Shown piece after piece: positions 46,868 through 51,065 of a stretch of DNA of 64,000 nt; within the stretch, counting starts at the first letter, position 1, and every line of letters begins with the position of its first letter. The notes below the pieces were generated by a model. It saw only the letters and a list, made by a program, of their open reading frames with translations. It did not search any database and was not told the DNA's origin. Both the position numbers and the translations under genes were made by a program. The DNA comes from Streptomyces chumphonensis (lineage in GTDB: Bacteria; Actinomycetota; Actinomycetes; Streptomycetales; Streptomycetaceae), in assembly GCF_014779715.1 (NCBI RefSeq), contig NZ_JACXYU010000007.1, forward strand, positions 186,001-250,000. Reading direction: 5' to 3'.

Positions 46868-47185
46868 TCATGGCCCGTCCGGCTCCCCGGCCCGGGGCTT
46901 GCGATGTCGCCCGCGCCCGGGGCGCGGCGGCCGGGCCCCCGGCCCCGGCTGCCCGGAGGGCGCCTCGTCCTCCTGCGGATACAGGACGGCCTTCGCCTCG
47001 GCGAGGCTCGCCGCGAACACGTGCGGCTCCCACGCGTAGCCGTTCCACCGCTCGATGACGCGCGGCGCCTCCGGCTCGACGTGTGCACCCCGCGGGCCCT
47101 GCCCGGTGACGGCGTGCACGGCACGCAGGCGGCCGATACGCCCGTTCCGGCGTTCCGCCCAGTCCTTCAACGACTCGTCCTCCAC
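46868..47185 (-). CDS. DUF6087-family protein
   Basis: A 105-aa protein: acidic N-terminus (EDESLKDWAERRNGR), then GPRGAHVEPEAPRVIERWNGYAWEPHVFA, the signature of the Streptomyces DUF6087 family, and a Pro/Gly/Arg-rich tail of low complexity. No signal or membrane segment. Function unknown. GTG 47185 follows the methyltransferase stop by 64 nt on the same strand, so it may be the last gene of that operon. Confidence 0.75.
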   Translation of the reverse strand: MEDESLKDWAERRNGRIGRLRAVHAVTGQGPRGAHVEPEAPRVIERWNGYAWEPHVFAASLAEAKAVLYPQEDEAPSGQPGPGARPPRPGRGRHRKPRAGEPDGP

Positions 47186-47249
47186 CGCGCCGCTCCTTCC
47201 GTCGCCGGATCGCCCCCCGTGACCAACAGCGGTTCCGCGCCGCGCCCCG

Positions 47250-48422
47250 TCACGCCCGGCGCGGAACCGTCCGGCCGGGATGCTCCAGCCAGACGGTGTG
47301 GCGGCCGTCGGACGTCACCGTCATGCCGAAGTCGCCGGGGCCGGGACGCCCGGCGGCCACCCACCACCGGTAGGCGTCCTCCACCTCCCGCCACAGCCGG
47401 CGCGGGCCGTGCTCCCAGACGGTGAACGTGCCGTCCGCCGCGCCGACGTCGTCGACCGCGGCCCAGGACGCGGCGTCCGTCGTCGCCACCCACAGGCGCG
47501 AGCGCACCCCGGGCACGCCCGGGTCGTGGTGCCGGGCCCACCACACGTCCGGCAGCAGGAGCCCGATCGCGAACCCGGCCGACCAGTCCTCCCCGGTGAC
47601 GTCCGAGGGCGGCAGCGTCGTTGTGGACTCCTCGGGGACGTGCGCGTCGCGCACCACGTCCCGGAAGATCCGCAGGTCCGTGCGCTGGCCGCGCATCAGC
47701 ATGAACGCCGCGTGCGGGAGGAACGGGCCCGAGGCCGAGCCGTCCAGCCCGACGCTGAGCCGCAGCAGCCCGAAGCAGAGCCACGGCGACTCCCACGGCG
47801 TCAGGACCACCCCGCCCGGCACCACGCCCCCGATCCACCGGCCGGGCACCCGCCGCACCGAGCACGTCGCGACGAGCCGGTCCACGCCGTCCGGTGCGAG
47901 GGCCGCGCCGTCCCCCGTGACGACGCGCGGCTCCACGCCCACCGACGCCAGGTTCGCGCGGGCCCGCGCGGCCAGAGCGGCGTCCACCTCCACCGAGGTG
48001 ACGAGCGACGACCCCAGCCGGTGGGCGAGCAGCCCCGCGTTCCACCCGGTCCCGGTGCCCACCTCCACGACGCGCTCCCCGCCCTCCAGCGCCAGCAGGT
48101 CGAGCATGCGCAGGACGATCTCCGGGGCGGACGCGGACGAGGACGCCCACCGCTCGCCGTCCGGCCCCGGGTCCGCGCCGTCGTCGACCTGCGTGACGAC
48201 CGGCGCGTCGGTGTAGGCGGCCCGCAGCCACGCCTCCGGCGCGTCCGCCCGGCTGCACGGCGTCAGCCCCTCGCCGAGCCAGACCGTCTCCGGGAGGAAC
48301 GCGTGCCGGGGCACGCCCAGGAAGGCCGCCTCCCACGCGGGCGCGAGCGGACGCCTCGCGCCGAGCCGGCCGAGCAGCCCGCGCGCGGCGGCCCGCTCGG
48401 CCGGTCCGTCCCCGTACGTCAC
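47250..48422 (-). CDS. PIMT-like SAM methyltransferase (graspetide-associated type)
   Basis: A 390-aa protein whose residues about 20-230 are a protein-L-isoaspartate methyltransferase-like domain. The region SRADAPEAWLRAAYTDAPVVTQVDD, then SSASAPEIVLRMLD, motif I VVEVGTGTGWNAG and VTSVEVD fit the PCMT group found beside ATP-grasp peptide maturases. A 160-residue C-terminal extension of unknown fold ends with WWVAAGRPGPGDFGM. It should methylate an Asp/isoAsp or carboxylate in a peptide or protein. No ATP-grasp ligase is in this window. GTG 48422 overlaps the stop of a 46-residue peptide gene by 4 nt (GTGA), so the peptide is the obvious candidate substrate (inference). Confidence 0.85.
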   Translation of the reverse strand: MTYGDGPAERAAARGLLGRLGARRPLAPAWEAAFLGVPRHAFLPETVWLGEGLTPCSRADAPEAWLRAAYTDAPVVTQVDDGADPGPDGERWASSSASAPEIVLRMLDLLALEGGERVVEVGTGTGWNAGLLAHRLGSSLVTSVEVDAALAARARANLASVGVEPRVVTGDGAALAPDGVDRLVATCSVRRVPGRWIGGVVPGGVVLTPWESPWLCFGLLRLSVGLDGSASGPFLPHAAFMLMRGQRTDLRIFRDVVRDAHVPEESTTTLPPSDVTGEDWSAGFAIGLLLPDVWWARHHDPGVPGVRSRLWVATTDAASWAAVDDVGAADGTFTVWEHGPRRLWREVEDAYRWWVAAGRPGPGDFGMTVTSDGRHTVWLEHPGRTVPRRA

Positions 48423-48559
48423 CGCTCCTCCTTGCCCCGGTGCTTCGGCTCGCCCCGGGGGTGCTGGGTGTCCGGCGACGGCTTCGCCGTGCCGGGGTCC
48501 TTGCCTCCCGCGTGCCTCCCCTCGCCGCCGCTGCCGCCCTTACCGGTTCCCCATGCCAT
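48419..48559 (-). CDS. 46-residue Gly/Lys/Arg-rich peptide coupled to the methyltransferase
   Basis: A 46-aa open frame from ATG 48559 with a strong ribosome site (AGGAGAGG, 4-5 nt upstream). Composition: MAWGTGKGGSGGEG start, then His/Lys/Pro/Asp residues and a KHRGKEER end; no Cys, no hydrophobic stretch, net positive. Its first 20 nt overlap the end of the upstream gene and its stop overlaps the methyltransferase start (GTGA). The gene is missed by length cut-offs. The coupling suggests a substrate or partner of the methyltransferase; it has no graspetide-type repeat of Thr and Glu/Asp, so a RiPP role is only a hypothesis. Confidence 0.55.
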   Translation of the reverse strand: MAWGTGKGGSGGEGRHAGGKDPGTAKPSPDTQHPRGEPKHRGKEER

Positions 48560-48905
48560 GGGACCTCTCCTCTCGTCGTTCCGTACCGCTTCGATCTCCG
48601 GTGACCGGGACGGGCCGGAGCGTCAACTCCCAGGCGCAGTCCCGCCCGACGTGGTGGCGGAACAGCGGCTCGCCGTTCTCCAGCCGCCGCCGCGTCTCGT
48701 CCCGCGCGGCCTCGCCGCTCCAGTCGCGGAACACGCCCGCCACCTCGTCGTCGTCCCCCAGCGTCTCCGCCACGCACAGGGCCCGCTCACGGGCCCAGCC
48801 CTGCACCTCGCCCGCCGCGAGCCCGAACGCGTCGCCCAGGTGGTACATCCGGGCCTCCGGCTCGCTCTGGTAGGCGACCAACTCCGCCCGGTAGGCCCGC
48901 GTCAC
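48540..48905 (-). CDS. Conserved-looking protein of unknown function in the ATPase-methyltransferase operon
   Basis: A 121-aa soluble protein, helical and acidic in its first 90 residues (AYRAELVAYQSEPEARMYHLGDAFGL region, then GVFRDWSGEAARDETRRRLENGE), with a C-terminal strand-like part (CAWELTLRPVPVTG) and a basic tail. I do not recognise the family. GTG 48905 makes a 4-nt GTGA overlap with the stop of the RsbW-like ATPase gene, which supports this start over GTG 48914. Its 3' end overlaps the 46-residue peptide gene by 20 nt. Confidence 0.65.
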   Translation of the reverse strand: MTRAYRAELVAYQSEPEARMYHLGDAFGLAAGEVQGWARERALCVAETLGDDDEVAGVFRDWSGEAARDETRRRLENGEPLFRHHVGRDCAWELTLRPVPVTGDRSGTERREERSHGMGNR

Positions 48906-49363
48906 GGCCCCCACCCGGCCCGTGCGTCACGTCCGTCGTCGCCGGGCGGACACCGGAACCACACCGCCTTGCCCTCCCCGACGCGGGTGTGCCCGAAGGC
49001 CGTGACCATCTGCCGTAACAGCCACAGCCCCCGGCCGCGTTCGGCGTCCCACGCCGGTTCCGACACCACGGGCGGATCGGGCGACCGGTCCACGACGCGC
49101 ACGACCACCGCGTCCCCGGACCGCTCCACCTCGATCCGGCACCGCGTGTCCGGCACGTGCCGCACCACGTTGCTCAGCAGCTCCGACACCCCCAGCCGGG
49201 CCACCGCCACGGCCTCCAGCCCGCCGCCCAACGCCCGCACCGCGTCCGCCACTTCCCGCCGACACCGCTCGACGTCCCGCGCCGTGACGGTCACGTCCCA
49301 CACCCGGCGCGCGGAGCACCGCCCCGCCCGCGCCGCCACCCGGCCCCCGGCCGTCCCGCTCAC
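48902..49363 (-). CDS. RsbW-like GHKL ATP-binding protein
   Basis: A 153-aa single-domain serine kinase/anti-sigma-like ATPase: N-box ELLSNVVRHV, G1 VVDRSPD, and G2 RGRGLWLLRQM. Such proteins in Streptomyces occur beside HTH regulators (the abaA/whiJ-type loci) and may act on sigma or anti-anti-sigma partners. GAGGGG is six bases before GTG 49363, which overlaps the preceding stop by 4 nt. Nearest partners are the 54-residue Cys protein before it and the unknown 121-aa protein after it. Confidence 0.88.
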   Translation of the reverse strand: MSGTAGGRVAARAGRCSARRVWDVTVTARDVERCRREVADAVRALGGGLEAVAVARLGVSELLSNVVRHVPDTRCRIEVERSGDAVVVRVVDRSPDPPVVSEPAWDAERGRGLWLLRQMVTAFGHTRVGEGKAVWFRCPPGDDGRDARAGWGP

Positions 49364-49524
49364 CGCTCGCCCCTCCGCCGCTCGGCGACCGCCCGCCCGA
49401 CCGAGCACACGGCGCGGTGCCGCCGCAGCAACACCCGGCAGTCCACCGCCCCCGAGTGGTCCCCTCTCCGCCGCGCCCGCTCCTCCCTCTCCCGCCACCG
49501 CACACACTCCACACACCCGCTCAT
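49360..49524 (-). CDS. 54-residue cysteine-containing basic protein
   Basis: A 54-aa protein from ATG 49524 with GGAGG five bases upstream. The start SGCVECVRWRERE holds a Cys-x2-Cys pair, and Cys residues recur in VDCRVLL and AVCSVG; the middle is Arg/Glu-rich and helical. Similar small CxxC proteins occur in WhiJ-type loci (recollection, not checked). It heads a five-gene coupled operon and its stop overlaps the ATPase start (GTGA). Possibly a metal- or redox-binding small regulator. Confidence 0.65.
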   Translation of the reverse strand: MSGCVECVRWREREERARRRGDHSGAVDCRVLLRRHRAVCSVGRAVAERRRGER

Positions 49525-49631
49525 GCGGACCTCCACAAAGCTGTACGAAGTTCCCCGCCGCCTTGCCGCGACGGATACGCTTAGCGAACACCGAACGACA
49601 CTGCGTGGGCACGCGGACGCGGTCGCGGGCA

Positions 49632-49648
49632 TGGTGAAAGCGGTGAAA
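49632..49648 (+). repeat. Direct repeat in the leader of the HTH-TPR regulator gene
   Basis: GGTGAAAG occurs at 49632-49639 and 49641-49648, about 25 nt before the start codon. The 146-nt divergent region also has ATACGCTTAG (49570-49579), a possible -10 region. Possible operator; no direct support. Confidence 0.35.
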
Positions 49649-49670
49649 GATCACGCGTCGAAGGAGCGCT

Positions 49671-51065
49671 GTGGCGCTGACTCCAGGTCGTAACAGCAAG
49701 CTTGAATCACATCTCGCCGAGGCGGGCTGGACGCACGCGCAGCTCGCCGGAGCAGTCGTGCGCGTCGCGCGCGAGAGCGGTGTAGCGCACCTGCTAGGCA
49801 TCGGGCGCTCACACGTCTCCCATTGGGTGCGTGGCACCAAGCCGTCAGGTCGTGCGCCGCAGGTCCTTTCCGAGGCGTTCTCGCGGCGGTTGGGCCGCTC
49901 TGTCACTCCTTCTGATCTCGGTCTCGCCGATGCTGGGGATCTCCCTCCGTATGCCTCACTCTGGGATGCGGATACGCTGACTGCTCTGGCCGGACTCGGA
50001 AGGGCAGACCTCGACGTGGACCGCAGAGATCTCTTAGGGAAGGCCACCTACTCGGTCGCGGGCCTCGCCGTCCCGGGATCAGCGTGGTGGCGGCAGCAGG
50101 AACGCACGTCCCGGCCCAGCACGGACCGAGGTTCGCGCCGCATCGGTCGGGGAGAGCTTGACGCGGTGCACGACATGATCGCGCTGTTCCAGCGAGTCGA
50201 CCAGCGCCGAGGGGGCGGACATGCCCGTTCCGCCGTTGCCCAGTACCTCATGGCGGATGTCGCTTCCTACCTGCGGTGTTCCTACGCTGACGAGGGCGTG
50301 CGACGTGGGATGCTTGCCGGCGCGGGGGAACTCGCTTATCTGGCAGGCTGGATGGCCTTCGACAGCGGTGAGCACGGGACGGCGCAGCGCTACCTCCTGC
50401 TTGGCGTCAAGCTCGCCGCTGAAGCAGCCGATGCCCCGTTGGCCGGACACATCCTCCGCGCACTTGCGCACCAGGCTCTTGACCTCGGGCACCCGGGGCA
50501 GGCACTAGGGCTTGCCCAGGCATCGGTGGAAGGGGACCGGTACGCGAGGGCCGCCCCGCGTGAGAGAGCGTTGCTGGAGGTCGTCCACGCGAGGACTTGT
50601 GTGGCAACAGGCGACGGGGCTGCCGCCTCTGCTGCACTGCTACGTGCTGAGAACGAGCTTGCGGCAGCAGGCGAAGACGACGACGAACCAGCACGTGTCT
50701 TCTTCTTCGGAGAAGCCTCACTTGCCCACGAGACCGCCTGCGCCTTGCGGGACCTTGGGGATCTCAAGGGCGCCCAGGACGAGTTCAGGCGCAGCGTCCG
50801 CACGAGGAAGGCTGCGACCTTCACCCGCACGCACGCCGTGACGCTGGGGTATCTGGGGGAGGTGCAGGCGCGGAAGGGAGACGTAGAGGAAGCCTGCGCC
50901 ACATGGCATCGCGCACTGGACGCGATGGAGGGCGTACGGTCCGGAAGGACCCGGCAGGTCGTCGTAAACCTGCGGAGGACGCTGTCGCCCTATCGGAGCC
51001 GACGGATCGACACCGCTCTCGAACTCGACGCACGAGCTGCCGTACACCTGATGGGCACACACTGA
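49671..51065 (+). CDS. HTH-TPR transcriptional regulator
   Basis: A 464-aa protein. An XRE-like helix-turn-helix lies at about residues 12-55 (LAEAGWTHAQLAGAVVRVA, then GRSHVSHWVRGTKPSG), followed by a linker with DRRDLLGKATYSVAGLAVPG and a long C-terminal array of tetratricopeptide-like helices (about 180-440). This is the architecture of many Streptomyces pleiotropic regulators whose TPR part binds peptides or proteins. AAGGAG is four bases before GTG 49671. It is divergent from the ATPase-methyltransferase operon and is its likely regulator. The gene is slightly less GC-rich than the core genes. Confidence 0.85.
   Translation: MALTPGRNSKLESHLAEAGWTHAQLAGAVVRVARESGVAHLLGIGRSHVSHWVRGTKPSGRAPQVLSEAFSRRLGRSVTPSDLGLADAGDLPPYASLWDADTLTALAGLGRADLDVDRRDLLGKATYSVAGLAVPGSAWWRQQERTSRPSTDRGSRRIGRGELDAVHDMIALFQRVDQRRGGGHARSAVAQYLMADVASYLRCSYADEGVRRGMLAGAGELAYLAGWMAFDSGEHGTAQRYLLLGVKLAAEAADAPLAGHILRALAHQALDLGHPGQALGLAQASVEGDRYARAAPRERALLEVVHARTCVATGDGAAASAALLRAENELAAAGEDDDEPARVFFFGEASLAHETACALRDLGDLKGAQDEFRRSVRTRKAATFTRTHAVTLGYLGEVQARKGDVEEACATWHRALDAMEGVRSGRTRQVVVNLRRTLSPYRSRRIDTALELDARAAVHLMGTH

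Follow-up and report, generated by a model that had tools for sequence, protein, structure and literature searches.

A probable type I pamtide module within a regulatory locus of Streptomyces chumphonensis

Type I pamtides, or imiditides, are ribosomally synthesized and post-translationally modified peptides (RiPPs) made by two-gene units such as SpaA-SpaM of Streptomyces sparsogenes and NmaA-NmaM of Nonomuraea maritima, in which a basic precursor of about 45 residues, rich in Gly, Pro, Asp and Lys and with an invariant Asp, is encoded next to a homologue of the methyltransferase PIMT that has an extra C-terminal domain and the motif WxxxGxP, and no primary RiPP enzyme is present. In the characterised members one Asp of the linear peptide is methylated, so that the mass shift is first +14 Da, then -18 Da in the aspartimide and finally 0 Da in Asp/isoAsp (PMC10787088, PMC13001092). 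RiPP-associated PIMT homologues are described with a C-terminal domain of more than 100 residues and strand-helix-four strands-helix order (PMC10787088), and WxxxGxP is named as the motif of these methyltransferases in a 2026 review, which also reports imiditide recognition to be charge-driven (PMC13001092). Here we describe a pair of probably the same kind, a 46-residue peptide and a methyltransferase, in a 64,000-nucleotide stretch of the Streptomyces chumphonensis genome (assembly GCF_014779715.1, contig NZ_JACXYU010000007.1, positions 186,001 to 250,000 of the forward strand; hereafter the window), where it shares an operon with an RsbW/AbaA-like ATPase gene and lies divergent from a regulatory gene of the NsdA family.

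The window pair agrees with the description of type I pamtides in several respects. The precursor gene adjoins that of the PIMT homologue (GTGA overlap 48422-48419, and the same adjacency at 30 of 30 loci of the peptide family described below); the precursor has 46 residues, close to the usual 45 or so, and belongs to a family rich in Gly, Pro, Asp and Lys; its Asp30 is invariant (17 of 17 aligned peptides); the enzyme has a C-terminal domain in beta-alpha-beta4-alpha order, with WxxxGxP near the C-terminus; and the operon and nine flanking genes encode no other primary RiPP enzyme. The isoelectric points, 9.8 for the peptide against 5.4 for the enzyme, are in agreement with the charge-driven recognition reported for imiditides. 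The CxxCxGxG zinc ribbon of type II pamtides is absent from the 46-residue precursor. There are also differences: NmaA has His after the Asp, where the window peptide has Thr (SpaA is likened by description only), and, unlike the known type I pamtides, the window operon adds an ATPase and proteins of 54 and 121 residues, with the NsdA-family regulator divergent from it. On these sequence features the two genes very probably form a RiPP module of the type I pamtide (imiditide) kind, a kind of system that has already been described (PMC10787088, PMC13001092).

Of 297 genomes of the same family, 28 hold relatives of the peptide (E up to 0.0016), at 30 loci counting that of the window. The search, carried to E 1, matched 292 of the 297 genomes, mostly by low-complexity chance; the first 30 rows were kept, and the next two by E-value (L052, L053), where the methyltransferase is not downstream, were excluded. 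Among 394 genomes of the class, the only clear matches were in the genome under study and in the already known G150, none lay outside the genus, and one hit (G323) was weak. The peptides follow the pattern MGWGTGKGG...GKHxGGKDPGTxKPSxD[T/G/S]...PKHK; residues M1, W3, G4, T5, G14, H16, G18, K20, D21, P27, D30 and K39 are common to the 17 that were aligned, and the composition of 27 of the 30 is 25.5% Gly, 18.8% Lys, 11.5% Pro and 9.8% Asp. Conservation extends from Met1 through the C-terminal PKHK, and the peptides do not divide into a constant leader and a core that varies. A Shine-Dalgarno-like stretch precedes most of the open reading frames (ORFs; judged by eye), and the median pairwise dN/dS is 0.39 (348 pairs, 27 of the 30 sequences); a random ORF is ruled out by the 30 conserved loci and this purifying selection.

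A homologous PIMT-type methyltransferase gene lies directly downstream on the same strand at all 30 peptide loci, and at 27 of the others its product is 52-77% identical to the window enzyme. The sequence-only reading had named joint conservation of the 121-residue, 46-residue and methyltransferase genes as a test of its idea. Such conservation holds for the last two, so that homologous loci do not as a rule lack either of them, since the pair is kept at 30 of 30; the 121-residue protein is not kept with the pair.

In an AlphaFold model of the window enzyme, built from 35 sequences (pLDDT 92.3), residues 264-356 have the strand-helix-four strands-helix order, the first helix being in two pieces. 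The best match in the PDB is the Thermotoga maritima PIMT 1dl5, aligned over 374-378 columns and both domains with a TM-score of 0.54 by query length; the root-mean-square deviation of about 7 A shows that the two domains are shifted. The WxxxGxP motif reads WVAAGRP, and W354 and P360 show no variation across 20 aligned methyltransferase rows. A plasmid origin, looked for with the enzyme and the 121-residue protein, was rejected: relatives of the enzyme occur on 78 plasmid records, all less than 60% identical. At one peptide locus (L063:3788-5590) the methyltransferase gene is split by an ORF resembling a group II intron reverse transcriptase (by eye), the adjoining peptide gene being intact.

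The window peptide has only two Asp residues and no Cys. Asp30, in the window in the context PSPD-T, is followed by Thr at 12 loci, Gly at 15 and Ser at 3 (by eye, all 30). Asp21 is followed by Pro in most family members, the window included; L061, outside the 17-row alignment and with a broken methyltransferase, has Ala at this position. An Asp that precedes Pro cannot form a cyclic imide. Asp30 is the predicted modification site, because it is invariant before Thr, Gly or Ser and Asp21 mostly stands before Pro. By analogy with the characterised members, from which we infer the chemistry at this residue, the predicted product carries an aspartimide and then isoaspartate at Asp30 (-18, then 0 Da). 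A methylated peptide lasting at +14 Da, as proposed in the sequence-only reading, is not expected, as the ester in known members goes on to the aspartimide and then to Asp/isoAsp; the +14 Da mark is the wrong read-out, and a mass test built on it could be falsely negative.

Regulatory genes accompany the pair far more often than they do random anchors. Genes were called in some 13 kb of sequence at each of the 30 peptide genes, and profile hidden Markov models were built from the recurrent neighbours (threshold at least 50 bits); as the control, 38 stretches of 20 kb with 988 anchors were drawn at random from 14 of these genomes. An NsdA-family, XRE and/or HATPase gene was found within 3 kb upstream of 28 of the 30 peptide genes, against 5.3% of the control anchors; by type, there were 16 loci with HATPase, 12 with NsdA-family and 10 with XRE genes, the XRE gene carrying DUF5753 in the one scanned. 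Training the models on the focal loci favours those loci, but lowering the threshold hardly changes the control rate (5.9% even at 15 bits), and the linkage is thus robust to the score threshold. Of the loci missed, L063 has an HTH_3 gene 2 kb upstream, and in L070 a gene about 3.1 kb upstream matches HTH_3 below the threshold. Two layouts dominate: an NsdA-family gene divergent from ATPase, peptide and methyltransferase genes, as in the window, and a co-directional array of a 77-residue-protein gene, a DUF6879 gene, XRE, peptide and methyltransferase. One control stretch (L108:2376-9000, genome G187) holds a methyltransferase (583 bits), an ATPase and two NsdA-family genes, perhaps another such locus.

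The same linkage is seen in a second pamtide-like family. The S. chumphonensis genome encodes a second pair, with a 31-residue peptide (HGDGKGG...ESDGQW; C52:231714-231806, L019:7715-7810), near an ATPase, an XRE and two DUF397 genes. This family comprises 26 loci in 23 of the 297 genomes, with the methyltransferase downstream at all 26 (split in L172 and L173); a regulator or ATPase gene lies within 3 kb upstream at 16 of the 20 loci whose start was found by pattern (on either side, 19 of 20), and at 18 of 26 if the six loci judged by eye are included. XRE and DUF6879 genes also stand upstream of genes for PIMT-type L-aspartyl O-methyltransferases (PAMTs) in Actinomadura (L181, L183, L191) and Nocardiopsis (L188). 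The regulator link is strong in the first family, clear in the second and moderate elsewhere.

A tree built from 94 methyltransferases places the window enzyme with those of L178 and L054/L177 (100/100) and then with L064 (99/93). The clade that holds it also takes in the XRE-type loci L055, L065, L059, L062 and L060, and the XRE pair L079/L081 adjoins six NsdA/ATPase loci. The NsdA/ATPase label changes 15 times on the tree, at least 13 of these changes being forced by starred branches, and the XRE label 17 times, at least 15 of them so forced; the loci are not independent, many coming from one genus. The type of regulator has changed repeatedly, and the linkage has survived these changes of partner.

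Taken together, the pair is in all probability a pamtide module, and quite probably one that sits in a regulatory locus. The sequence-only reading of a regulatory or signalling system has become likelier through the neighbourhood statistics (28 of 30 against 5.3%), though the role itself is what we infer. Several observations weigh against this picture. No product has been observed for the 46-residue peptide, and the score of the window enzyme against its nearest NCBIfam model, TIGR04188, stays below the cut-off (287 against 380 bits). The methyltransferase beside the peptide is broken at 5 of the 30 loci (L056, L061, L063, L073, L082), and the strict WxxxGxP is absent from 12 of the 25 full-length methyltransferases of the first family. 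In a named collection of 46 methyltransferase loci, where the ATP-grasp motif was judged by a rough pattern, a regulator or ATPase gene stands upstream at 16 of the 31 PAMT loci without that motif (three first-family loci included) and at 4 of the 15 with it. Two of those three first-family loci were not among the 30: L178 is a hit, and L179 is a miss, in which the models find the pair without ATPase, NsdA or XRE and only another helix-turn-helix (HTH) gene is seen by eye. As L178 keeps the operon without an NsdA-family gene, this regulator is not indispensable. Shuffled labels need about 24 changes on the tree, which indicates that the regulator labels are partly just inherited, and 29 of the 94 rows have no regulator label. 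Finally, DUF397-DUF5753 pairs have been noted as possible companions of graspetide groups 11 and 13 (Carter et al. 2026, PMC13097080); since other RiPP clusters are thus also found near XRE-DUF397 pairs, a nearby regulator need not mean a regulatory product.

The control region of the window can be compared with that of a studied switch. WhiJ9 of S. venezuelae activates iosA and binds to direct repeats that lie in the divergent region (PMC10294661). As in the WhiJ-BldB-AbaA loci of Streptomyces, an HTH regulator is divergent from a HATPase_c gene in the window, with candidate direct repeats between them. The HATPase_c protein is the only one of the usual components found, as the 13-kb neighbourhood of the window locus (L083) gave no match to DUF397 or XRE (DUF5753); the regulator is NsdA-family instead, and the modified-peptide pair is present. 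The sequence-only reading of a peptide and modifying methyltransferase coupled to an HTH/ATPase locus without DUF397 was right. The divergent gene, which had been read as an HTH-tetratricopeptide repeat (TPR) regulator, is confirmed as such, with its start 146 bp from the operon. It shares the NCBIfam subfamily NF053720 with NsdA and differs from it in falling under the NsdA equivalog cut-off (NF050130, 178 against 830 bits) and in having the ATPase-pamtide operon as divergent neighbour. A gene finder that relies on codon usage, trained on neighbouring loci, did not call this gene, which points to atypical codon use and perhaps to acquisition.

The region that separates the ATPase operon from the NsdA-family gene holds two copies of GGTGAAAG, 9 bp apart, inside a 22-bp block that is identical in L054, which also has an NsdA-family gene. 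The repeat was not seen in the aligned stretch of L178, a locus without the NsdA-family gene, nor was it found before the NsdA-family genes at six other NsdA/ATPase loci scanned. A different direct repeat, two copies of ACCGGACGTTTC whose starts are 12 nt apart, is common to L066 and L078; it precedes the matched start of the NsdA-family gene by about 90-105 nt and is also a candidate operator. On balance we favour control of the peptide-methyltransferase pair by the neighbouring regulator.

We propose that the methyltransferase would bind the linear basic peptide and methylate the side chain of Asp30, whose ester would close onto the next backbone nitrogen to form an aspartimide, to be hydrolysed to Asp or isoAsp. 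The module is translationally coupled to the RsbW/AbaA-like ATPase, and the divergent NsdA-family regulator would most likely bind the intergenic direct repeats and switch the operon, as WhiJ9 does for iosA. The modified peptide would act intracellularly, downstream of the regulator switch. That the peptide is itself a regulatory effector is a tentative suggestion. It is rather doubtful, if attractive, that in streptomycetes and some other actinomycetes type I pamtides serve in general as intracellular effectors of XRE/NsdA-type switches, with aspartimide/isoAsp feedback as a chemical timer; the regulator and the AbaA-like ATPase would then determine the timing of peptide production, and the aspartimide, which is electrophilic and short-lived, or else the isoAsp form would in turn act on the ATPase, on the regulator or on a partner sigma factor.

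It is possible, instead, that the pair makes an ordinary pamtide whose product is exported, as a membrane-active compound or an antibiotic, the ATPase and HTH genes being only the pathway switch. Imiditides are strongly basic, and membrane contact is suggested for them in the review (PMC13001092); DUF397-DUF5753 pairs, moreover, are reported near graspetide clusters too (PMC13097080). However, no exporter- or peptidase-like cluster was seen by eye among the neighbour clusters common to at least 8 loci, a scan that leaves single genes outside, and the conservation from Met1 to PKHK shows no leader/core split. A single ABC-ATPase-like neighbour cluster was found, in 4 loci. An intracellular product is more likely because no exporter or peptidase was seen among those shared clusters and the whole peptide is conserved.

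We consider it unlikely that the pair is a passenger in a hot spot of regulatory loci, functionally unlinked to its neighbours. Both the kind of regulator and the accessory genes do vary from locus to locus, and the 121- and 54-residue-protein genes come and go. Yet the upstream frequencies given above are far apart, the linkage is kept through repeated regulator changes and in a second peptide family, and the genes overlap in the window. Much less credible still is a methyltransferase that acts on the neighbouring regulator or the 121-residue protein; the genes are translationally coupled and PAMTs acting on an FHA protein have been suggested (PMC10787088), but the peptide is the only invariant partner of the methyltransferase, with the reservation that the loci were found by peptide. 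A graspetide system with its ATP-grasp enzyme elsewhere in the genome can practically be set aside: the sequence-only reading had likened the enzyme to those of ATP-grasp peptide systems and TIGR04188 is indeed the nearest model, and the methyltransferase superfamily is shared with graspetide group 13 (ATP-grasp and PIMT, with DUF397-DUF5753 pairs reported nearby), but the score is below the cut-off, no ATP-grasp ligase gene is present in the operon or among the flanking genes scanned, the precursor is of another kind, and the tree sets the window enzyme among those of other WGTGKGG peptides, apart from most rows with the ATP-grasp motif.

The remaining features of the locus are collected in the table. 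All five minus-strand ORFs overlap at each junction, as had been read from the sequence: GTGA overlaps at 49363-49360, 48905-48902 and 48422-48419, and a 20-nt overlap at 48559-48540. The DUF6087 gene that had been placed after the methyltransferase follows it at a 64-nt gap.

Table. Features of the pamtide locus in the window
Feature	Position	Strand	Evidence
54-residue basic Cys protein, CxxC...SGAVDCRV	49360..49524	-	ORF call and motif
RsbW/AbaA-like HATPase_c_2 protein, 153 residues	48902..49363	-	PF13581 2e-12, PF02518 2.4e-07
Acidic 121-residue protein, no known family	48540..48905	-	ORF call
46-residue predicted precursor peptide MAWGTGKGGSGGEGRHAGGKDPGTAKPSPDTQHPRGEPKHRGKEER	48419..48559	-	conserved family
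PIMT-type L-aspartyl O-methyltransferase (PAMT), 390 residues	47250..48422	-	PCMT (Pfam) 6e-15
DUF6087 protein, 105 residues, occasional downstream partner	46868..47185	-	PF19565 5.9e-32
Divergent NsdA-family HTH-TPR regulator, 464 residues	49671..51065	+	NF053720 424 bits, cut-off 75
Direct repeat GGTGAAAG-C-GGTGAAAG, candidate operator	49633..49649	+	21 nt 5' of NsdA-family start

The 121-residue protein goes with the ATPase and not with the peptide pair. No relative was found at the 29 other peptide loci fetched, the closely related L054 included; the named collection adds one instance among its three first-family loci, in L178 (81% identical). Close relatives occur in L014-L016, XRE-DUF397-ATPase loci with no peptide or methyltransferase in the surrounding 13 kb, whereas the models find neither such an ATPase nor such neighbours at L017 and L018, where the matches are partial and weak. 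A role of this protein as a part of the RiPP system is ruled out by its association with the ATPase and its absence from other peptide loci. Its profile, compared by hhalign with those of DUF6879, the 77-residue family, DUF397, the 54-residue protein, the ATPase, XRE, the NsdA family and DUF6087, gave probabilities below 1%, its model (pLDDT 73) has no clear fold match (Foldseek best E 0.51, VIA-align best Z 4.0), and no match to it was found on plasmids. Relatives of the 54-residue motif are present at L054/L177, L059, L178 and L179 and absent from 40 random 20-kb stretches; a further match in L061, far from the peptide, looks spurious. DUF6087 is also encoded downstream of the methyltransferase at L054/L177, L082, L178 and L198. 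The whole cassette, from the 54-residue protein through ATPase, 121-residue protein, peptide and methyltransferase to DUF6087, is present in Streptomyces sp. JJ38 (L178), where the next upstream gene (L178:4852-5613) is a GntR-type ORF by eye.

Pfam and NCBIfam gave nothing above cut-off for the 54-, 121- and 46-residue proteins, and no sigma-70 promoter or terminator was found by scans of the locus. The flanks are ordinary by Pfam (acyl-CoA dehydrogenase, enoyl-CoA hydratase, TetR, AzlCD, AsnC-type regulator, TrmO, GntR, a methyltransferase and DUF6194), and no ATP-grasp, lanthipeptide or lasso gene is present among nine flanking genes and the operon. PADLOC gave a single match, of methyltransferase residues 98-186 to part of mad2. 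Elsewhere in the same genome, on contig C1 (L023:3297-6164), an NsdA-family gene, an ATPase and a truncated methyltransferase look like a decayed copy of such a locus.

Aspartimide RiPPs are chemically well studied, and linking them to biological function has been called the bigger challenge (2026 review, PMC13001092). Regulators near type I pamtides are not mentioned in the main texts of that review and of PMC10787088, supplements and the founding imiditide paper lying outside this comparison; relative to the literature examined, the regulatory setting of the type I pamtide pair is new, its kind being already known. XRE-DUF397 pairs and the BldB/WhiJ/AbaA network are reported to act on development and antibiotic production (PMC10294661). 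The mass test that would otherwise be used for such a peptide is now corrected, a lasting +14 Da no longer being its read-out. The strong linkage of the pair to regulatory switches, kept through changes of regulator, offers a concrete place to look for pamtide function, and it hints at a possible role of the peptide in a regulatory circuit within the cell.

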